Source: Acidaminococcus timonensis
Lineage (GTDB): Bacteria; Bacillota; Negativicutes; Acidaminococcales; Acidaminococcaceae
Length of the DNA stretch: 64,000 bases
Direction: 5' to 3'
Assembly (NCBI RefSeq): GCF_900106585.1
Contig: NZ_FNWH01000006.1
Coordinates: forward strand, 930,001-994,000
The translations under genes were made by a program, and so were the position numbers. The notes under the pieces were generated by a model. It was not told where the DNA came from and searched no databases. It saw nothing but the letters and a program-made list of their open reading frames with translations. Each line of letters begins with the position of its first letter. Position 1 is the stretch's first letter. Below are positions 4,745 through 63,265 of this stretch, piece by piece.

Positions 4745-5330
4745 ATGTCCCCCGCCACGGAGACGACAAAGAGGAGTCTCTCAGTCCTGCGGAAAAGGAT
4801 AAAGCTTTGTGTCCCCCTGAAAGGGGGAAAGGACCCGCTTGCGGGTAGGGGGTTCGCACGCCTCTCTGAATTTTAAAGACGGTGTTACTAGTATGATTGA
4901 TATAAGAACCCACCACCAGAATGGTAGTAAAGAGTCGTATGGTCGGTGTAAAAACCTATCCACCATTGCGCTGACGCGCAACGGTCCCCCTTCCCTTTCA
5001 GGGAAGGACAATTACTTGTGTCCCCCGCGACGGAGACGACGAGCAGGAGTCTCCTAGTCCCGTGGAAAAGGGGGAAAGGGCCCGCTTGCGGGTAGGGGGT
5101 TCGCACGCCTCTCTGAATTTTAAAGACGGTGTTACTAGTATGATTGATATAAGAACCCACCACCAGAATGGTAGTAAAGAGTCGTATGGTCGGTGTAAAA
5201 ACCTATCCACCATTGCGCTGACGCGCAACGGTCCCCCTTCCCTTTCAGGGAAGGACAAAGATTTGTGTCCCCCTGAAAGGGGGAAAGGGCCCGCCTTGGC
5301 GGGTAGGGGGTTCGCACACCTGACAAACGA
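4745..5330 (+). repeat. R1 fold-back repeat array, locus 1
   Basis: Three left ends (acccgc-tt-gcgggt hairpins near 4826, 5080 and 5290) and two right ends (near 4960 and 5205) in direct tandem order. The stem tip of both right ends is TTGCGC-TGAC-GCGCAA. One left end carries the long module (5023-5075), the others the short CCCCCTGAAAGGGGG hairpin. Fills the gap between the 4654 gene and the Rpn gene; no coding evidence. Confidence 0.85.
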
Positions 5331-5465
5331 CAAGAAACACGCATTCCTTCATCACCCCGATTACCGTTTATGACGGTCTTTTTGCACTTAATGACGGTCA
5401 CTGATTATCCCCTCTTCTTTTTATGGTATAGTATCCTCAAGAAAATACCGGAAGGAGCACTGTCT

Positions 5466-6402: not shown

Positions 6403-6427
6403 AATGGTAACAGGGAATCCACCCCGG

Positions 6428-6800
6428 GCAGAGACGGGGCCGGTCGCAGGGTCGGTGTACGAACCTATCCACCAGCCATGCGGCTGGTCCCCCTTCCCTT
6501 TTCCCCGGGACTAGGCTGTTCCTTCTCGTCACGGCCGTCGCAGGGAAGGACAAATCCTTGTGTCCCCCGCGACAGAGACGACGAAGAGGAGTCTCCCAGT
6601 CCGGCAGAAAAGGGGGAAAGGACCCGCTTCAGCGGGTAGGTGGTTCGCATGCCTCTCTGTCTTTTAAAGACGGTGTTACTCGGACGGTCGATGTCAGAAC
6701 CCACCACCAGCCATTCGGCTGGTCCCCCGCCCTTGAAAAGGGCGGATATTGTGATGGCGTGGGTGCCATTCGGCTGGTCCCCCTTAAAAGGGCGGATAAT
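6428..6800 (+). repeat. R1 fold-back repeat array, locus 2
   Basis: Right end with long module (6455-6560; tip CAGCC-AT-GCGGCTG), left end with long module (6562-6650), and two shortened right ends (about 6700-6795) in which the outer hairpin has become CCGCCCTTGAAAAGGGCGG or is cut off. It looks like a decaying array. Confidence 0.8.
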
Positions 6801-6850
6801 AGGGTATGGCGGATCCGGAGAGGATTTGGGTTAACTTTTATTCCATTGTC

Positions 6851-6878
6851 TTGACAAATACCTCTATCTGAGTATAAT
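6851..6878 (+). promoter_or_regulatory. panC: Promoter of panC
   Basis: TTGACA (6851-6856), 16-base spacer, TATAAT (6873-6878); both hexamers are perfect. Confidence 0.8.
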
Positions 6879-6884
6879 AAAAAC

Positions 6885-7098
6885 CCGAATGATGGAACTT
6901 CTGGCAGGAGATAAATTTAGGGTTCCATCCCAAAACGGTTTCCCGATGCTGGATTGCGCGCGCAGACCATGGCCATCCATGGTCTGGATCCCTTCGGACT
7001 CGGAACCTACAATATATCGAAAGACTGGGACGGCAAGGTGCCCCTCTCTCATATGGGTACTGGATGTTCCAGGACTTTCACTGAAAGGTGTTGTCGTT
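6885..7098 (+). other. Long untranslated leader of panC
   Basis: About 210 bases separate the promoter from panC. The stretch contains the palindrome CCATGGCCATCCATGG and GGATCCCTTCGGACTCGG pairings. No known riboswitch was recognised. Upstream in-frame readings exist but have no ribosome site. Confidence 0.45.
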
Positions 7099-10414: not shown

Positions 10415-10725
10415 GTGTCCCCATGCGACGGAGACGACAAAGAGGAGTCTCCCAGTCCGGTGGAAAAGGGAGGAAAGAACCCGCTTGCGGGTAGGGGGTT
10501 CGCACGCCTCTCTGAATTTTAAAGACGATATTACTCGCAGGGTCGGGGTATGAATCCACCACCAGAATGGTAGTAAAGAGTCGTATGGTTGATGTACGAA
10601 CCTATCCACCGTCCATTCGGACGGTCCCCCTTCCCTTCCAGGGAAGGACAAAGCTTTGTGTCCCCGCGACGGAGACAACGAAGAGGAGTCTCCTAGTCCG
10701 GCGGAAAAAGGAGGAAAGTCTGTCT
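10415..10725 (+). repeat. R1 fold-back repeat array, locus 3
   Basis: Left end with long module (10415-10510), core, right end with tip CGTCC-AT-TCGGACG (10605-10650), then a second, broken left end with long module that runs out near 10725. Lies between the permease and the M20 gene promoter. Confidence 0.82.
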
Positions 10726-13639: not shown

Positions 13640-13920
13640 TCAGCAGTCTCCCAGTCCTGTGGGAAAAGGGGAAAAATTTGTGTCCCCCTGCAAGGGGGAA
13701 AGGGCCCGCTTGCGGGTAGGGGGTTCGCACACCTCTCTGCCTTTTAAAGACGGTGTTCCTCGTATGGTCGGTGTAAAACCTATCCACCATTGCGCTGACG
13801 CGCAACGGTCCCCCTTCCCTTTCAGGGAAGGACAATTACTTAGTTTCCCTACCCCCTTCCCTTTTCCCCAAGGCTGGGCTGTTCCTCTTCGTCACGACCG
13901 TCGTGGAAAGGACTAAAGGA
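13640..13920 (+). repeat. R1 fold-back repeat, locus 4
   Basis: One unit: left end with short hairpin (13683-13735, preceded by a piece of the long module at 13645-13675), core, right end with tip TTGCGC-TGAC-GCGCAA (13788-13835), then a degenerate long-module copy to 13915. Confidence 0.82.
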
Positions 13921-13951
13921 TATTATCCTCAGCCCCCGTTGATGGTCTCCA

Positions 13952-17184: not shown

Positions 17185-17610
17185 AGGGCCCCATGCGGCA
17201 GGGGATTCGAACATCGGCCGATCCTTTTACAGACGGTATAATTAATTCGTACTGTCGGTGTAAAAACCCATCCACCGTGCTACGCACGGTCCCCCTTCCC
17301 TTTTCCCCGGGACTAGGCTGTTCCTCTTCGTCACGGCCGTGGCAGGAAGGACAAAAGATTTGTGTCCTACGCGACTTTGTGTCCCCCTGAAAGGGGGAAA
17401 GGACCCGCTTCAGCGGGTAGGGGGTTAGAACACCTGACTAACGACAAGAAGATATAAGAACCCACCACCAGAATGGTAGTAAAGAGTCGTATGGTCGATG
17501 TACGAACCTATCCACCGTCCATTCGGACGGTCCCCCTTCCTTCTCCCTGGGACCAGGCTGTTCCTGTTCGTCACGGCCGTCGCAGGAAGGACAACGACTT
17601 GCCCCCTACC
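17185..17610 (+). repeat. R1 fold-back repeat array, locus 5
   Basis: Starts with a damaged left end (17185-17215), then a right end with tip GTG-CTACG-CAC and the long module (17270-17350), a left end with short hairpin (17379-17430), and a right end with tip CGTCC-AT-TCGGACG and long module (17505-17600). Two different stem tips occur in one array. Confidence 0.82.
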
Positions 17611-17635
17611 TCTTTTCTTTCTGTTCCACCTGTTT

Positions 17636-23902: not shown

Positions 23903-23944
23903 ATAATGAGAATCTGTGCATTTTTTGGTGTAAGAACAAGGGTT

Positions 23945-24770
23945 TTGTGTCCCCCTGAAAGGGGGAAAGGACCCGCTTGCGAGTAGGGGGTTAGAACGCC
24001 TAACTGACGACAAGAACCAGATACTGTGAAAAGGTTACGGATAAGTCGTATGGTCGGTGTAAGAACCTATCCACCGTCCATTCGGACGGTCCCCCTTCCC
24101 TTTCAGGGAAGGACAAATATTTGTTTCCTAGTCCTGTGGAAAAGGGCTTTGTGTCCCCCGCGACGGAGACGACGAGGAGGACTCTCCCAGTCCTGTGGAA
24201 AAGAGGAAAAGCCTTGTGTCCCCCTGAAAGGGGGAAAGGGCCCGCTTGCGGGTAGGGGGTTAGAACGCCTGACTGACGACAAGAACCAGATACTGTGAAA
24301 AGGTTACGGATAAATCTTATGGTCGGTGTAAGAACCTATCCACCAGCCATACGGCTGGTCCCCCTTCCCTTTTCCCCGGGACTAGGCTGTTCCTATTCGT
24401 CACAGCCGTCGCAGGGAAGGACAAATACTTGTGTCCCCCCTACTTGTGTCCCCCTGAAAGGGGGAAAGGACCCGCTTGCGGGTAGGGGGTTAGAACGCCT
24501 GACTGACGACAAGAACCAGATACTGTGAAAAGGTTACGGATAAATCTTATGGTCGGTGTAAAAACCTATCCACCAGCCATACGGCTGGTCCCCCTTCCCT
24601 TGCAGGGAAGGACAAATACTTGTGTCCCCCGCGACGGAGACGACGAAGAGGAGTCTCCTAGTCCTGTGGAAAAGAGGAAAAGCCTTGTGTCCCCCTGAAA
24701 GGGGGAAAGGACCCGCTTGCGGGTAGGGGGTTCGCACACCTGACTACCTTTACAGACGATGTTACTCATA
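23945..24770 (+). repeat. R1 fold-back repeat array, locus 6
   Basis: Four left ends (about 23950, 24220, 24460, 24690) and three right ends (24065 with tip CGTCC-AT-TCGGACG; 24335 and 24570 with tip CAGCC-AT-ACGGCTG). Between units the spacer GACTGACGACAAGAACCAG is repeated almost exactly. Short and long modules alternate. Longest plus-oriented array in the window. Confidence 0.87.
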
Positions 24771-24775
24771 TGGTT

Positions 24776-26683
24776 TTACCGTTTCCCCACCAGACACCGC
24801 ATGGAATTCAGCACACAGAGGATCAGCACCCCTGTATCTGCGAAAATGGCAAACCACATGTTGATGAACCCCAGGGCCCCCAGCACCAGGCTGATGACCT
24901 TGATCCCGATGGCGAACACAATGTTCTGGTACACGATGCCCACGCACTTCCGGGCAATCCGGATGGCCGTGCTGATCTTCAGGGGATCGTCGTCCATGAG
25001 CACCACATCCGCCGCTTCGATGGCCGCATCACTGCCCAGGGCCCCCATGGCAATGCCCACGTCCGCCATGGCCAGCACCGGTGCGTCATTGATCCCGTCG
25101 CCCACAAAAGCCACTTTGTCCTTTTCGTCCTTGCGGCGGATCAGCTGATCGACCTTCTCCACCTTGCCCTGGGGCAGCAGTTCGCTGTACACCCTGTCGA
25201 TGCCCAGCTGGGCCGCCACGGCCTCCGCCGGTTTCTTCGCATCTCCGGTGAGCATGACCACTTCCTTCACGCCGTTTTCCTTCAGGGCCCGCACGGCCTG
25301 TGCAGAATGGGCCTTGATCCGGTCGGCGATCAGGATATGCCCCTGGTATTCGCCGTCCACGGCCACATGCACCAGCGTCCCCACCATATGGCAGTCCATA
25401 TAGGGAATACCCAGCTGGTCCATAAGCTTGTAGTTGCCGGCGGCTACCTTGTGCCCATCCACATTGGCCAGCACACCCTTACCGCCGATTTCTTCGATAT
25501 CTGTCACCCGGCTGCGGTCGATGAGCTTGCCGTAAGCCTTCTGCAGGCTCTTGCTGATGGGATGGCTGCTGGCACATTCGGCCAGGGCTGCCAGTTCCAG
25601 CACCCGTTCCTTGGCCATTTTATTGTGGTGCAGGGCGCTGACCTCGAACACCCCTTCCGTCAGGGTGCCCGTCTTATCCATGACCACGTAGGCCGTATGG
25701 GCCAGGGTCTCCATGTAGTTGGACCCCTTGATCAAAATGCCCTGCCGGCTGGCACCCCCGATGCCCGCAAAGAAGCTCAGGGGAATGGAAAGCACCAGGG
25801 CACAGGGGCAGCTCACCACCAGGAACAGCAGGCTGCGGTACAGCCACATATGCCACAGGGGAGGCAACCCCAGGATCATCCGTACCACCGGCGGCAGCAA
25901 AAACAGGGCCAGGGCCGAACCGCACACCACCGGGGTGTACACCCGGGCGAACTTGCTGATGAACACTTCAGATTTCGCCTTCCGGCTGCTGGCATCCTCC
26001 ACCAGCTCCAAAATCCTGGACACCGTGGATTCGCCAAATTCTTTGGTGGTGCGGATGGTCAGCACGCCGCTCTGGTTGATGCAGCCGCTGATCACCTCAC
26101 TGCCCGGTTCCACTTCCCGGGGCAGGCTTTCGCCGGTAAGAGCCGCCGTCTCCAGGGTGCTGCGGCCGGTGACCACCACGCCGTCGATGGGCACTTTTTC
26201 CCCGGGCTGTACGGTGATCACCGTCCCCACCGCCACTTCATCCGGGTCCACCTTCACCAGCTGCCCGTCCTTTTCGATGTTGGCGTAGTCCGGCCGGATG
26301 TCCATCAGGTCGCTGATGTTCCGCCGGCTTTTGTCCACCGCATAGTCCTCGAACAGTTCCCCCACCTGATAGAACAGCATGACGGCCACGCCTTCCGCAA
26401 AATCGGCGTTCTCGTAGATGCCCAGACCGAAGGCCCCCAGGCTGGCCACCGCCATCAGGAAGTTCTCGTCCAGCACCTGGCCCTTCTTGATGTTCTTCAG
26501 GGCCTTCTTCAGGATGTCGTAGGAAATGATCAGGTAGGCCGCCAGGTACGGCAGCAGGTGCAGCACCCGGGTGGTGGTGTCCACACCGGTTCCGCTCCAG
26601 CTGTCCGGCAAAAAGCCTGCCCCGATGGTCAGGAGGGCACTGACGGCAATCCGCCCGATCATGTGTTTCTGTTCTTGTTCCAT
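24776..26683 (-). CDS. Heavy-metal P1B-type ATPase, Zn/Cd/Pb class
   Basis: A 635-residue efflux pump. It has no N-terminal HMA domain; a separate 72-residue HMA protein is encoded just upstream. Motifs: LTGESLP (actuator), SCPCALVLS (CPC metal site in the membrane), DKTGTLT (phosphorylated D), SSHPIS (the HP locus), [11 protein letters not shown]. Late membrane helices carry a K (AIGIKVISL) and a D (FADTGV) at the places typical of the ZntA/CadA class, so zinc or cadmium rather than copper. RBS GAGAGGTGA before the ATG at 26683. Its 3' end meets the R1 array with no clear terminator between. Confidence 0.92.
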   Translation of the reverse strand: MEQEQKHMIGRIAVSALLTIGAGFLPDSWSGTGVDTTTRVLHLLPYLAAYLIISYDILKKALKNIKKGQVLDENFLMAVASLGAFGLGIYENADFAEGVAVMLFYQVGELFEDYAVDKSRRNISDLMDIRPDYANIEKDGQLVKVDPDEVAVGTVITVQPGEKVPIDGVVVTGRSTLETAALTGESLPREVEPGSEVISGCINQSGVLTIRTTKEFGESTVSRILELVEDASSRKAKSEVFISKFARVYTPVVCGSALALFLLPPVVRMILGLPPLWHMWLYRSLLFLVVSCPCALVLSIPLSFFAGIGGASRQGILIKGSNYMETLAHTAYVVMDKTGTLTEGVFEVSALHHNKMAKERVLELAALAECASSHPISKSLQKAYGKLIDRSRVTDIEEIGGKGVLANVDGHKVAAGNYKLMDQLGIPYMDCHMVGTLVHVAVDGEYQGHILIADRIKAHSAQAVRALKENGVKEVVMLTGDAKKPAEAVAAQLGIDRVYSELLPQGKVEKVDQLIRRKDEKDKVAFVGDGINDAPVLAMADVGIAMGALGSDAAIEAADVVLMDDDPLKISTAIRIARKCVGIVYQNIVFAIGIKVISLVLGALGFINMWFAIFADTGVLILCVLNSMRCLVGKR

Positions 26684-48434: not shown

Positions 48435-49195
48435 GCGGAAAAAGGAAGGTCTTTTGTCCTTCCCGCGACGGCTGTGACGAACAGAAACAGCCTGGTCCCG
48501 GGGAAAAGGGAAGTCTTTTGTCCTTCCCTGAAAGGGAAGGGGGACCAGCCCTATGGCTGGTGGATAGGTTTATACACCGACCGTACGGGTAACACCGTCT
48601 GCTGCCAGTTGTCCGGTGTGCTAACCCCCTACCCGCAAGCGGGTCCTTTCCCCCTTTCAGGGGGACACAATTCTTTGTCCTTCCCGCGACGGCTGTGACG
48701 AACAGGAACAGCCTGGTCCCGGGGAAAAGGGAAGTCTTTTGTCCTTCCCTGAAAGGGAAGGGGGACCAGCCCTATGGCTGGTGGATGGGTTTTTACACCG
48801 ACCGTACGAGTAACATTGTCTGCTCTCGTTTGTCCCGTGTGCTAACCCCCTACCCGCCAAGCGGGTCCTTTCCCCCTTTCAGGGGGACACAATTCTTTGT
48901 CCTTCCCGCGACGGCTGTGACGAACAGGAACAGCCTGGTCCCGGGGAAAAGGGAAGTCTTTTGTCCTTCCCTGAAAGGGAAGGGGGACCAGCCCTATGGC
49001 TGGTGGATAGGTTTTTACACCGACCGTACGGGTAACACTGTCTGCTCTCGTTTGTCCCGTGTGCTAACCCCCTACCCGCAAGCGGGTCCTTTCCCCCTTT
49101 CAGGGGGACACAAATCTTTTTCCCTTTTCCACGGGACTGGGAGACTCCTTCTCGTCGTCTCCGTCACGGGGGACACAAATCTTTGTCCTTCCCGC
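48435..49195 (-). repeat. R1 fold-back repeat array, locus 7 (reverse orientation, inside the topA-trmFO gap)
   Basis: Three full units in head-to-tail order. Each has a right end with long module (near 48460, 48690, 48905), short hairpin, tip CAGCC-CTAT-GGCTG, the core, and a left end with acccgc hairpin (near 48630, 48850, 49075). The units are almost identical, showing recent local duplication. No promoter was found inside. Confidence 0.9.
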
Positions 49196-55374: not shown

Positions 55375-55790
55375 AAGGTACTGATAAGGCCCCCTTGTGG
55401 GCAGGGGGCCTACAACTGCCAAACTTTTACAGACGGTGGTATTCGTCTGGTCGGTGTAAAAACCTATCCACCAGCCATAGGGCTGGTTCCCCTTCCCTTT
55501 CAGGGAAGGACAAAAATCTGTGTCCCCCTGAAAGGGGGAAAGGACCCGCTTGCGGGTAGGGGGTTCCCACACCGGACAACCGGCAGCAGACGGTGTTACC
55601 CGTTCGGTCGGTATAAAAACCCATCCACCAGCCATGCGGCTGGTCCCCCTTCCCTTTCAGGGAAGGACAAAGACTTGTGTCCCCCGCGACGGAGACGACG
55701 AGAAGGAGTCTCCTAGTCCTGTGGAAAAGGGGGAAAGGACCCGCTTCAGCGGGCAGGGGGTTCCCACACCGGACAAGCGACAAGAACAGG
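55375..55790 (+). repeat. R1 fold-back repeat array, locus 8
   Basis: A worn left end (55385-55405), right end with tip CAGCC-ATA-GGGCTG (55470-55515), left end (55525-55575), right end with tip CAGCC-AT-GCGGCTG (55630-55675), left end with long module (55680-55770). In the gap between the DUF2939-like and HD genes. Confidence 0.84.
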
Positions 55791-56511: not shown

Positions 56512-56541
56512 CAAAAAAAGGATCCCGCGCCAGCGGGACCC
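56512..56541 (-). terminator. Terminator after mgtA and the 41-residue gene
   Basis: GGTCCCGCTGGCGCGGGATCC hairpin followed by seven Ts on the minus strand. Confidence 0.85.
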
Positions 56542-56568
56542 TCTTCCCTTTCCACAACGCATCGTCGG

Positions 56569-56694
56569 TCACACATGGCGCTGCGCTTTCGGAGCCCTGG
56601 TCCAGCAGACCACCTGCATCAGGCAGACCACCAGCACAATGGCTCCCATGCCGATCCAAAACAGGGGTTCCAGATTCATCATCAAGTCCAGCAT
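56569..56694 (-). CDS. 41-residue single-span membrane protein behind mgtA
   Basis: A short gene with AAAGGAGG eight bases before ATG 56694. The protein (MLDLMMNLEPLFWIGMGAI and on) has a hydrophobic helix at about 10-30, two cysteines at the far end of the helix, and a basic tail ending KAQRHV. It begins 37 bases after the mgtA stop and precedes the operon terminator. Size, topology and position resemble MgtS, MgtU and MgtR, small proteins that steady or remove Mg pumps in enterics; there is no sequence likeness to claim. Function inferred from place. Confidence 0.75.
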   Translation of the reverse strand: MLDLMMNLEPLFWIGMGAIVLVVCLMQVVCWTRAPKAQRHV

Positions 56695-56730
56695 GGCGCG
56701 TTCCTCCTTTCCCAAAAAATGAAATCCATC

Positions 56731-59487
56731 TTACAGCAAACTTCCATAATGGCGGATATACGCTTTTTTGATGCTGGTGGCCAGCAGCATATAGGCCAGT
56801 ACCACCAGGGCCAGGAATCCGAAATACACCCCCGGCAGCGGCAGAAATCCCAGGTCCCTGCCCAGGCTCCCGGTAAAGGGCAGCAGGGTACAAAGGGCAA
56901 TCCCGCTGGTGGTGAGCATGGTCAGGGTGGCCGACGCATGGCTCTGGATGAACGGGATCTTGGGGGTCCGGATCATATGGATGACCAGGGTCTGGGTCCA
57001 CATGGATTCCACGAACCACCCGGCCTGGAACAGGGCCGTATAGGCCTGCCGCATATCCATCCCGGCAAAGGCCCCGGCTGCGATCTTCGTCCCCGCCGGG
57101 ATGTGGTTGAAGGTCAGGCCGCCGCTGATGAACTGGGGACAGATCACGAAATACAGCACCAGATAGGTGATCCAGTCGAACACCGAGCTGGTGGGGCCCA
57201 GCCACAGCATGAAGCTGCCGATGCTGCCGGCATCCCAGTTCCGGGGCACCTTCAGGTATTCCTCATCCACATTGTCCCAGGGGATGGCGATGCAGGAGAT
57301 TTCGTACAGCAGGTTCAAAATGATCAGCTGCAGGCTGCTCATGGGCAAAAACGGCAGCAGGGCACTGGCCGCCAGCACCGAGAACATGTTCCCGAAGTTG
57401 GAGCTGGCCGTCATCTTGATGTATTTGATCATGTTGGCGTAGGTCTTGCGTCCTTCCACAATGCCCTGTTCCAGCACCATCAGGCTCTTTTCCAGCAGGA
57501 TGATGTCGGCACTTTCCTTGGCAATATCCACGGCGCTGTCCACCGAAATGCCGATGTCCGCGTTCTTCAGTGCCGGCGCGTCGTTGATACCGTCACCCAT
57601 GAAGCCCACCGTATGGCCTTTGGCCTGCAGCGCCTCCACCACCCGGGCTTTCTGGTCCGGGGACAGCTTGGCGAACACCGTGGTCCGTTCCACTTCCCCT
57701 TCCAGTGTCTTCTCATCCATATTGTCCAGGTCGCTGCCCAGCAGGATGTGCTCCACGGGCAGCCCCACCTGGCGGCAGATGCACCGGGTGGTCTTTTCGT
57801 TGTCCCCGGTGAGCACCTTGGTGGTGACCCCGTGGTCCTTCAGGGCCGCAATGGCCTCAGCGGCGCTGTCCTTGGGCGGATCCAGGAAAGCCAGATAGCC
57901 CAGGAGCACCATGCCGTTCTCATCTTTTACCCCGAAGGCCCCTACCGGGGAGGGGTTGATTTTCCGGGCCAGGGCGATCACCCGCATCCCCTCTTCGTTC
58001 AAATGGTCTGCCACGCTGCAGATCTTTTTCCGCAGGGCGTCGGTCAGGGGCAGGGGTTCATGGTTTTCCTCCACATGGCTGCACACCTGCAGCATTTCTT
58101 CCACAGCCCCCTTGGTAATCATCTGGGTCCGGCCCCTGGGATCGGTGACCACCACCGACAGTCTCCGGCGGGCGAAATCAAAGGGGATCTCGTCCACCTT
58201 CTTGTAGTTCTCCGACAGATCCACCAGCCGGGGATCCGCATTTTCTTCCTCTTCCGTCTTTTTGATGATGGCCCGGTCCATGAAGTTCTTGTACCCGGTC
58301 TGGAAGTAGCTGTTCAGGTAGGCATACCGCAGTACCCGCTGGCTGGACTGGCCCTGGGCGTCCAGATGGTATTCCAGCACCACCTTGTCCTGGGTCAGGG
58401 TCCCGGTCTTGTCCGTGCACAGTACATCCATGGCCCCGAAGCTCTGGATGGAGTTCAGGTTCTTCACCACGGTCTTCTTTTCCGACATGGAAACGGCGCC
58501 CTTGGCCAGGCAGGTGGTCACGATCATGGGCAGCATTTCCGGTGTCAGGCCCACGGCCACGGAAATGGCGAACAGGAAGGCGGACACCCAGTCCCCCTTG
58601 GTCATGCCGTTCACAACGAACACGATGGGCACCATGGCCATCATGAACCGGATCAGCACCCAGGATACAGAGTTCACGCCTTTGGTGAAGTTGGTTTCCG
58701 GGGCCTCCTGGGCCATGGAACTGGCCAGGCTGCCGAACAGGGTCCTATCACCGGTCCGCAGCACCACCCCTGTGGCCGAACCGGAGATCACGTTGGTCCC
58801 CATGAAGGCCAGGTTGTCCAGTTCCGTCACGGCTTTGCTTTCGCTGTTCTGCACCGCTGCCGGCACCTTTTCCTGGGGAGCACTTTCCCCGGTCAGGGAA
58901 GACTGGCTCACGAACAGGTCCCTGGCCTCCAAAATCCGCAGATCCGCCGGCACCATATCACCGGTGGACAGGAACACCAGGTCTCCCACTACCACATCTT
59001 CCAGCGGCACTTCCCGGCGTTTGCCCTCCCGGATCACCGTACAGGTGGTGGTGATCAGTTCCAGCAGCTTCTCCGCCGCATCGCCGCTGCGGGCTTCCTG
59101 GATGAACCGCAGGCAGCCGGAGATCAACAGCAATGTCAGGATGATGCACACGGTCACCGGGTTGAAGTTCGCCCAGTCCCCCGCCCGCCAGGGCAGGATG
59201 ATATCTGTCACCGTGGAAACCCCGGCCAGCACGAACAAGATCACCGTGAAGGGGTTGATGAAGGCCTCTGCCAGACGCTGGGGCAGGGTCTTTTTCTTTT
59301 CCCGGGTCACCTTGTTGGCACCGTAGGCATCCCGGTTCTTTTCGATCTGATCCGGCGTCAGGCCCCTTTCCGTGGAGCCCAGTTTCCGGAGCAGTTCGCT
59401 CTTTTCCAGGCCGGCCACCTGTTTCAGGAAGTTCTGGGTTTCCTGGGAAGCCGACTGGAGTTTCAGTACCTTATTTTCTTTTTTCAT
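56731..59487 (-). CDS. mgtA: Magnesium-importing P3B-type ATPase
   Basis: A 918-residue pump importing Mg2+. About ten spans. [11 protein letters not shown] (actuator), [11 protein letters not shown] (phosphorylated D), [11 protein letters not shown], and membrane segment [20 protein letters not shown] with the N-T-P/ L-T-P-E-M signature of MgtA/MgtB. Long N-terminal cytoplasmic part (1-95). Transcribed under an M-box riboswitch. Ribosome site AGGAGG is partly covered by a hairpin. Followed by the 41-residue membrane protein gene. Confidence 0.96.
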
Positions 59488-59669: not shown

Positions 59670-59897
59670 AAAGAAAACGCCGTCCGGGTAACCCGAACGG
59701 CGAAAAATTTGATTTTCTTCAATGGAGCAGGTCCATTGCCACCGTACGAGCTTCAACTCTACAGGGCGGTGAAACTGCATTATGCGGCGCCTTCTTGTTT
59801 GACGCAGCCTGTTCAGACCTACGCGGGATGTCTCCATCCTGTTGCGGCAGCAGTCCATATCCCTGTAGGAGCCTTGCCTACCGGACACGATTCATTT
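59670..59897 (-). ncRNA. M-box magnesium riboswitch
   Basis: The minus strand holds the M-box core: GGTAGGCAAGGCTCCTACA (L-rich P1/P2 block), GATATGGACTGCTGCCGC, later TAGAGTTGAAGCTCGTACGG. It ends with a terminator (CGCCGTTCGGGT-TA-CCCGGACGGCG, 59678-59702) and TTTTCTTTT. Promoter right upstream, mgtA right downstream. High Mg2+ should favour termination. Confidence 0.93.
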
Positions 59898-59906
59898 GAT
59901 GGTTAT

Positions 59907-59935
59907 ACTATAACCGATAAATAAAACTTTGTCAA
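59907..59935 (-). promoter_or_regulatory. Promoter of the M-box-mgtA transcript
   Basis: TTGACA (59930-59935), 17-base spacer, TATAGT (59907-59912). Confidence 0.8.
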
Positions 59936-62414: not shown

Positions 62415-63265
62415 GGACACAAGTCTTTGTCCTTCCCGCGTCTTTTGTCCTTCCCGCGACGGCTGTGACGAACAGGAACAGCCTGGTTCCGGGGGAAAGG
62501 GCGTCTTTTGTCCTTCCCTGAAAGGGAAGGGGGACCGTTGCGCATCAGCGCAATGGTGGATAGGTTCTTACACCGACCGTACGACTCTTTACTACCATTC
62601 TGCTGGATAGGTTCAAACACCGTTTCTAATTTTACATTGGGTGTGCTAACCCCCTACCCGCAAGCGGGCCCTTTCCCCCTTTCAAGGGGACACAAATCTT
62701 TGTCCTTCCCTGAAAGGGAAGGGGGACCGTTGCGCATCAGCGCAATGGTGGATAGGTTCTTACACCGGCCCTGCGAGTAACACCGTCTGCTGCCGGTTGT
62801 CCGGTGTGCTAACCCCCTACCCGCTGAAGCGGGTCCTTTCCCCCTTTCAGGGGGACACAACGCTTTTCCCCTTTTCCACAGGACTGGGAGACTCCTCCTC
62901 GTCGTCTCCGTCGCGGGGGACACAAATCTTTTGTCCTTCCCTGAAAGAGAAGGGGACCGTTGCGCATCAGCGCAATGGTGGATAGGTTTTTACACCGACC
63001 GTACGACTCTTTACTACCATTCTGCTGGATAGGTTCAAACACCGTTTCTAAATTTACATTGGGTGTACTAACCCCCTACCCGCAAGCGGGCCCTTTCCCC
63101 CTTTCAGGGGGACACAACGCTTTCCCCCTTTTCCACAGGACTGGGAGACTCCTTCTCGTCTCCGTCGCGGGGGACACAACGCTTTGTCCTTCCCTGGAAG
63201 GGAAGGGGGACCGTTGCGCATCAGCGCAATGGTGGATAGGTTTTTACACCAACCTTGCGAATTAC
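62415..63265 (-). repeat. R1 fold-back repeat array, locus 9 (reverse orientation)
   Basis: Three left ends (near 62650, 62815, 63070) and four right ends (near 62515, 62705, 62940, 63190). All right-end tips are TTGCGC-ATCA-GCGCAA. Long modules at about 62445-62505, 62865-62925 and 63120-63180. Inserted between a plus-strand promoter and the MerR gene, and between hisD and MerR. Confidence 0.9.

Follow-up and report, generated by a model that had tools for sequence, protein, structure and literature searches.

What is the short open reading frame (ORF) that lies directly behind the Mg2+ pump gene mgtA in Acidaminococcus timonensis, and what might its product do? This ORF occupies 56569 to 56694, minus strand, of the 64,000-nucleotide stretch of DNA that was analyzed (the window). 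It has 41 codons, from an ATG at 56694 to a stop codon ending at 56569, and its product is MLDLMMNLEPLFWIGMGAIVLVVCLMQVVCWTRAPKAQRHV; the plus strand of this interval gives a different reading. The original prediction described a gene with a perfect ribosome site, a single membrane helix, a basic tail, and a place between mgtA and its terminator. We found all four features. The Shine-Dalgarno (SD) sequence AAGGAGG (56703 to 56709, minus strand) stands 8 nt before the ATG. Residues 10 to 32 (56599 to 56667, minus strand) are predicted from AlphaFold2 and alignments to form one long membrane helix, with conserved F12, W13, and W31. In the AlphaFold2 model, made from a 58-row alignment, this helix has block pLDDT values of 93 to 94, and there is a short N-terminal turn. 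The residues after the helix, 33 to 41 (56572 to 56598, minus strand), are basic. The mgtA stop lies 36 nt upstream of the ATG, and a hairpin at 56548 to 56513 lies downstream.

Such a combination is rare in the window. We found that only three ORFs of 20 to 80 codons start 4 to 10 nt past AGGAGG in the whole 64 kb, and the product of the small gene, with a peak Kyte-Doolittle value of 2.48, has the sole membrane-grade stretch among them. The second ORF (60038; peak, 0.41) is embedded in the frame of a longer one. The third (29450; peak, 0.89) lies just upstream of a large, feoB-like ORF.

On the minus strand upstream of mgtA, we found a promoter-like site, TTGACA-17-TATAGT (59907 to 59935), that matches 11 of 12 consensus positions; two sites of this quality occur in the stretch, compared with 0.4 expected in shuffles. 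An M-box (ykoK leader) Mg2+ riboswitch aptamer (RF00380; 85.1 bits, gathering 44) occupies 59731 to 59892 of the same strand. Between it and mgtA is a terminator-like hairpin of 11 pairs with a T-rich tail (59678 to 59702, minus strand), a putative expression platform, for which one hairpin was found and 0.7 were expected in shuffles. The mgtA gene (56731 to 59487, minus strand) encodes a 918-amino-acid Mg2+ P-type ATPase that scores above the cutoff for both NF011702 (1,162.5 bits) and TIGR01524 (1,122.2 bits). The intrinsic terminator of the operon (56513 to 56548, minus strand; -24.0 kcal/mol, z of -5.25, then a U-run) starts 20 nt past the stop codon of the small gene. This hairpin was picked up by the energy fold and was absent from the output of a separate pattern scan. 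Given the promoter-like site, the M-box, the adjacency of the genes, and the terminator, the pump and the small gene look like one Mg2+-controlled transcription unit and are probably cotranscribed. RNA folding around the start of the small gene was within chance (z of +1.26), and we therefore propose no attenuator there.

Control by an M-box does not extend to all relatives of this locus. An M-box lies upstream of mgtA in the window and in all three of the other Acidaminococcus loci scanned, and none was found in the 11 scanned loci from outside Acidaminococcus (3 of 14 loci overall, all Acidaminococcus). M-box control of the small gene is therefore not general, and carriers outside Acidaminococcus are either regulated otherwise or have a leader beyond the flank examined. 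PMC12810186 reports a different arrangement, a small ORF upstream under an M-box in Mycobacterium tuberculosis.

An ORF of 41 codons is unremarkable by its length alone, and it could have arisen by chance or reflect a conserved RNA element that mimics coding. We found that relatives of the small gene make this reading barely credible. The usual form of the family has about 50 residues, with the outline MNWTxIWMKLFGTTEFLGLNMGFWVSMAVVLLIVILMNVVFWGMKPKK, and its core is FW, 17 residues, and W, followed by K-P-K in most members. The core F, W, and W are invariant in 23 aligned members and also in a 58-member alignment. The Acidaminococcus form is a short form that does without most of the N-terminal segment, and the window protein keeps the FW and W of the core. 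It matches the family profile at 34.6 bits (E value, 1.4e-8), and that profile was seeded by a GFW motif that is absent from the window protein. Family rows (n = 77, of which four repeat the species or sequence of another row) span 37 to 86 amino acids. The start codon is ATG in 76 of the 77, and the SD match has at least 5 bases in 75 and 6 to 7 bases in 68, counts that are favored because starts were picked by the best SD.

We also found that the frame evolves as a protein. Among five Acidaminococcus sequences, pN was below pS in all 10 pairs, with dN/dS between 0.12 and 0.59. Across the family (70 members), the pooled pN/pS was 0.27 and pN was below pS in 34 of 35 disjoint pairs, with distant pairs near saturation since pS was 0.46. 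The other two forward frames contain stops in 68 and 21 of the 70 members. The protein sequence of the family is under purifying selection. The synonymous-biased divergence, the invariant FW and W, and the kept SD and frame all argue against a chance ORF or an RNA element. Loss of the frame in relatives had been named beforehand as an observation that would count against the gene, and the frame is kept. That the mgtA operon contains a genuine small gene is thus strongly supported by the frame, the SD, the divergence, and the relatives. We concluded that the 41-codon ORF is such a gene and that it stands last among the genes of an operon made up of promoter, M-box, mgtA, small gene, and terminator.

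Two further features of the protein are kept across the family. K and R are more numerous on the C-terminal side of the helix than on the N-terminal side in 75 of 77 rows and equally numerous in the other 2. By the positive-inside rule, the basic flank of a membrane helix faces the cytoplasm, and the basic tail is thus expected to lie in the cytoplasm. In 75 of 77 rows, a polar residue (N, Q, H, or E) occupies core position 16; in the window protein, this residue is Q27. Separately, we noted a 4-residue insertion past the invariant W in Phascolarctobacterium-labeled and related loci (L072 at 6742 to 6906, L107, and L112).

To see how far the family reaches, we took the best 80 of 497 confirmed mgtA loci, ranked by match to the window MgtA, which makes the sample a biased one. 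Of the 79 loci in this set that could be judged, 72 have a relative of the small gene behind mgtA; 71 were found by HMM and L047 was added in a later check, and the locus that could not be judged, L051, ends 75 nt past mgtA. No relative was found behind mgtA in seven of these loci (L026, L027, L029, L038, L045, L094, and L096). The median gap between mgtA and the small gene is 15 nt in the 71 HMM carriers. Carriers among the best 80 loci belong mainly to the Lachnospiraceae, Oscillospiraceae, and other Clostridia. The Negativicute carriers are Acidaminococcus, Megasphaera, and two Phascolarctobacterium-labeled metagenome-assembled genomes (MAGs), and carriers from other phyla are a Gordonibacter isolate (L086) and a Synergistaceae MAG (L102), the last of which may be a binning error. 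The original prediction of a Negativicute counterpart of MgtS or MgtU was thus too narrow in its taxonomy, with most members clostridial and two from other phyla.

Genome surveys, which are broader than this sample, gave the same association from the side of the small gene. Of nine Acidaminococcus genomes sampled, including that of the window, five have mgtA and the small gene and four have neither. In 250 Negativicutes genomes, 11 had a match to the small gene at an E value below 1e-12. All 11 fall among the 22 genomes with MgtA above the cutoff, and each of these small genes sits behind mgtA, up to a few hundred nucleotides away. In a survey of 398 genomes across the phylum, MgtA was above the cutoff in 19 and a strong match was found in 3, all behind an mgtA reading frame; 2 of the 3 were already in the Negativicutes survey. 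In G317, the mgtA frame upstream of the small gene appears broken. Combined, the two surveys gave strong matches in 12 genomes, every one behind mgtA. These counts leave out weaker matches (E values of 3.9e-5 to 0.01), which made up 3 of 14 in the Negativicutes survey and 12 of 15 in the phylum survey. One of them, in G231 (E value, 6.2e-5), has an internal TGA and lies on a different contig from the G231 mgtA.

This placement bears on another reading, that the protein is a small toxin of the type I kind or a peptide of a mobile element. The protein is short and hydrophobic with one helix, and LdrD was matched weakly in a profile search (E value, 0.55). However, every strong match sits behind an mgtA and the gene is under purifying selection. 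Phage and plasmid records gave no match to a clostridial member used as the query, and the window protein had four weak matches to plasmids, the best with an E value of about 1. Viral contigs gave four pattern matches to the family alignment, none of which was confirmed, in a search of low power with a short query. We consider a toxin or mobile-element peptide very improbable.

In G475 (L146, 1315 to 1581), one of the weaker matches proved to be the final part of a zinc-ribbon-like protein, with a helix much like that of the family (LGNVIFWSLIPK); no mgtA was seen in the L146 locus. In L145 (541 to 1647), an intact small gene follows an mgtA whose frame stays open for no more than 314 codons, reflecting either decay of the pump or a sequencing error.

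Which MgtA proteins does the small gene accompany? We built a FastTree of 170 MgtA rows and labeled them by the presence or absence of the small gene. Rows with hardly any sequence past mgtA (L051, L133, L165, and L170) were labeled as lacking it, and the program issued a warning about long branches that meet in another part of the tree. All 77 carriers fall inside one clade of 87 rows with a support of 98. The label changes 8 times on the tree, compared with an average of 56 for shuffled labels. A clade of 44 MgtA paralogues contains no carrier. Of the ten unlabeled rows in the carrier clade, L051 is truncated and the flank of L129 extends for 248 nt; the other eight, which are the seven loci listed above and L134, appear to be without the small gene. 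It follows that an MgtA pump can do without the small protein. L026 and L027 (Terrisporobacter), both without the small gene, group with the Acidaminococcus pumps (support of 83).

Many sampled loci have another MgtA gene upstream, and this allowed a comparison within loci. We applied a simple rule (an SD, an ATG within 60 nt, and a hydrophobic ORF of 25 to 100 codons), leaving out L037 and L051 for their short flanks. Such an ORF followed 63 of the 78 query mgtA genes and none of the 60 further MgtA ORFs in these loci. In 8 of the 15 cases that the rule missed, a family member is nonetheless present according to the HMM or other locus checks. Among other long frames, many of them spurious, only 1 of 223 was trailed by such an ORF, which again argues against a chance ORF. 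Distances between pumps and between small proteins correlate (r = 0.79 over 52 loci, with 0 of 2,000 permutations as high; r = 0.65 without Acidaminococcus), and this mirror-tree result reflects coinheritance, as expected for any tightly linked gene. We concluded that the small gene is closely linked to one MgtA clade.

Is the protein a relative of something already described? We found no Pfam or NCBIfam family for the window protein up to an E value of 10. For 23 family members, NCBIfam gave weak, scattered matches only (best E value, 0.011), and Pfam gave OATP at 0.00073 for one member and MRAP at 0.0018 for 9 members; the curated cutoffs, seen for the first of the 23, were not reached by that member. 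A profile search of a PDB copy returned no chain that is a credible relative. The end of the helix resembles V-ATPase subunit e (21 positions, A1 profile positions 30 to 50; E value, 0.0076), probably by chance. Among the open PMC library papers listed for the topic, we recognized none as describing a small protein behind mgtA outside the enterobacteria, and small-ORF catalogues may list the family unnamed. By the tests run, the small protein appears to form a separate family of putative small partners of P-type Mg2+ pumps.

The closest parallels are enterobacterial. According to passages of PMC10710835 and PMC10925321, MgtS (31 amino acids, Escherichia coli) is a small membrane protein that binds MgtA and shields it from degradation by FtsH. 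MgtU (28 amino acids, Salmonella) is produced together with MgtB, a P-type Mg2+ pump, and keeps FtsH from degrading it, as described in PMC10710835. MgtS and the window protein are alike as small, one-helix membrane proteins. They differ in length, MgtS having 31 amino acids and the family rows 37 to 86, and in gene position, the MgtS gene lying between ydeE and mgtT/mgrR, away from mgtA, while the family here lies directly behind mgtA. Profile comparison detected no homology to E. coli MgtS (hhalign of A1; probability of 0.3%, E value of 0.2), a test of low power with a single 31-amino-acid sequence, and none to E. coli MgtT, again with low power for short sequences. MgtU, whose known partner is MgtB, is likened by description to the product of the small gene behind mgtA. 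The trait of MgtU and MgtR, a small gene 3' of a P-type Mg2+ ATPase, is present in the window and in the 72 carrier loci. A helper that acts like MgtS or MgtU, as first proposed, is still the best functional guess.

The small gene accompanies one pump branch in many gut bacteria, and its product is therefore probably a dedicated small partner of the Mg2+ pump. We give somewhat better than an even chance to the reading that it is a coinherited, one-helix partner of one MgtA branch that stabilizes or tunes the pump, as MgtS and MgtU do. According to this model, low cytoplasmic Mg2+ would let transcription through the M-box, a step that rests on the riboswitch match and on known M-box behavior. 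MgtA and the small protein would then be made together at low Mg2+. The small protein would span the membrane once, with its N terminus outside and its basic C terminus inside, and its helix would pack on the transmembrane domain of its MgtA subclass as an accessory subunit, placing the basic tail at the cytoplasmic face of the pump. The pump would be kept in the membrane, shielded from FtsH-type proteolysis, or have its activity tuned. The steps after transcription are proposed by analogy with MgtS and MgtU as presented in portions of PMC10710835, PMC13209247, and PMC10925321. Physical binding to MgtA and stabilization rather than inhibition would likewise follow from these precedents. Genes for both MgtA and FtsH are present in the genome of the window, which has two FtsH-family genes above the cutoff. 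Counting against this model, PMC13174805 reports that purified Lactococcus lactis MgtA, which may be of another clade, hydrolyzes ATP without a named partner.

The main rival is a degradation adaptor like MgtR, a small membrane peptide of 30 amino acids from the Salmonella mgtCBR operon (PMC6813294, in part). Under this model, the small protein would bind MgtA (or MgtC) and hand its target to FtsH, limiting the pump. MgtR promotes degradation, whereas we read the protein here as a stabilizer or tuner. The gene order mgtC, DUF3784, mgtA, and small gene in part of the Clostridia (L046) resembles mgtC-mgtB-mgtR of Salmonella, a likeness by description. A relative of the L046 MgtC was found in 24 of the 80 loci, in L086 downstream of the small gene and in L092 on the other strand. 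A passage of PMC10710835 also has MgtR promoting the FtsH-dependent loss of MgtA and MgtB. However, MgtC was not found in 56 of the 80 loci, within flanks reaching 4 kb at most, and the one MgtC of the window's genome is about 610 kb away, so MgtC is not a general partner. The precedent itself is disputed because PMC6813294 reports that endogenous MgtR has no effect on MgtB stability. We consider an MgtR-like negative regulator unlikely.

It is also possible that the protein modulates the pump and leaves turnover alone, altering affinity, rate, dimerization, or lipid dependence in the manner of sarcolipin and phospholamban on SERCA or of KdpF in KdpFABC, a reading to which we give a low probability. 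KdpF, sarcolipin, and phospholamban are likewise small partners of P-type ATPases, of other pump subfamilies, and are likened here by description; sections of PMC10925321 catalogue such one-helix partners and ask whether more pumps have small proteins. With MgtR peptide, the Vmax of ATP hydrolysis by L. lactis MgtA fell from 1.3 to 1.0 μmol/min/mg, according to PMC13174805. The conserved polar residue at core position 16 would suit helix packing. Against this reading, no chain in the PDB copy is a credible relative.

We modeled a natural in-frame read-through at L086, in which the mgtA stop is treated as a residue and a 36-codon open linker leads into the small gene, with a 73-row alignment. 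The model is of moderate quality (mean pLDDT of 69.2, pTM of 0.52). In it, the small protein has a predicted short helix at 955 to 963 and a membrane helix at 973 to 995, with block pLDDT values of 85 and 82 over residues 971 to 990. A Foldseek search with this model returned P-type ATPases with MgtA first, and there are MgtA structures that share about 62% identity with the L086 pump.

The small proteins are candidate partners of the MgtA pumps of many gut bacteria and go with a single pump clade. PMC10925321, which presents the structure of E. coli MgtA, does not settle in what way small proteins act on P-type ATPases or whether more of these pumps have them. We hold tentatively, at slightly under an even chance, that an MgtA branch centered on gut Clostridia and Negativicutes, and passed to one lineage of Actinomycetota and perhaps one of Synergistota, has a dedicated, coinherited, one-helix subunit that moves with the pump. 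The enterobacterial MgtS and MgtU would then be one of several independent inventions of a small partner for Mg2+ P-type ATPases. MgtA genes without a partner in the same loci and the few clade members without the small gene are natural contrasts, which make the question testable in a heterologous host.

The surroundings of the small gene yielded further observations. L046 (33 to 6952) holds a Mg2+ cluster in the order MgtA paralogue, Trans_reg_C (OmpR-type) protein, MgtC (PF02308, 113.5 bits), DUF3784, MgtA, and small gene. Relatives of its DUF3784 protein occur in 31 of the 80 loci, and relatives of its OmpR-type regulator occur in 65. In Acidaminococcus fermentans (L024, 6760 to 7140), a repeat-like insert puts 381 nt between mgtA and the small gene, and the SD, frame, and downstream hairpin are all kept past it. 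Judged by eye, this insert resembles the dispersed repeats of the window. Those repeats are about 60 to 230 nt long with palindromic parts (for example, CCCCCTTCCCTTTCAGGGAAGGACAAA), form 15 direct-repeat families, and lie at 4791 to 5336, 6412 to 6709, 10437 to 10718, 13662 to 13936, 17288 to 17615, 23929 to 24796, 48449 to 49184, 55411 to 55786, and 62440 to 63260. By eye, they look like a REP/MITE-type element.
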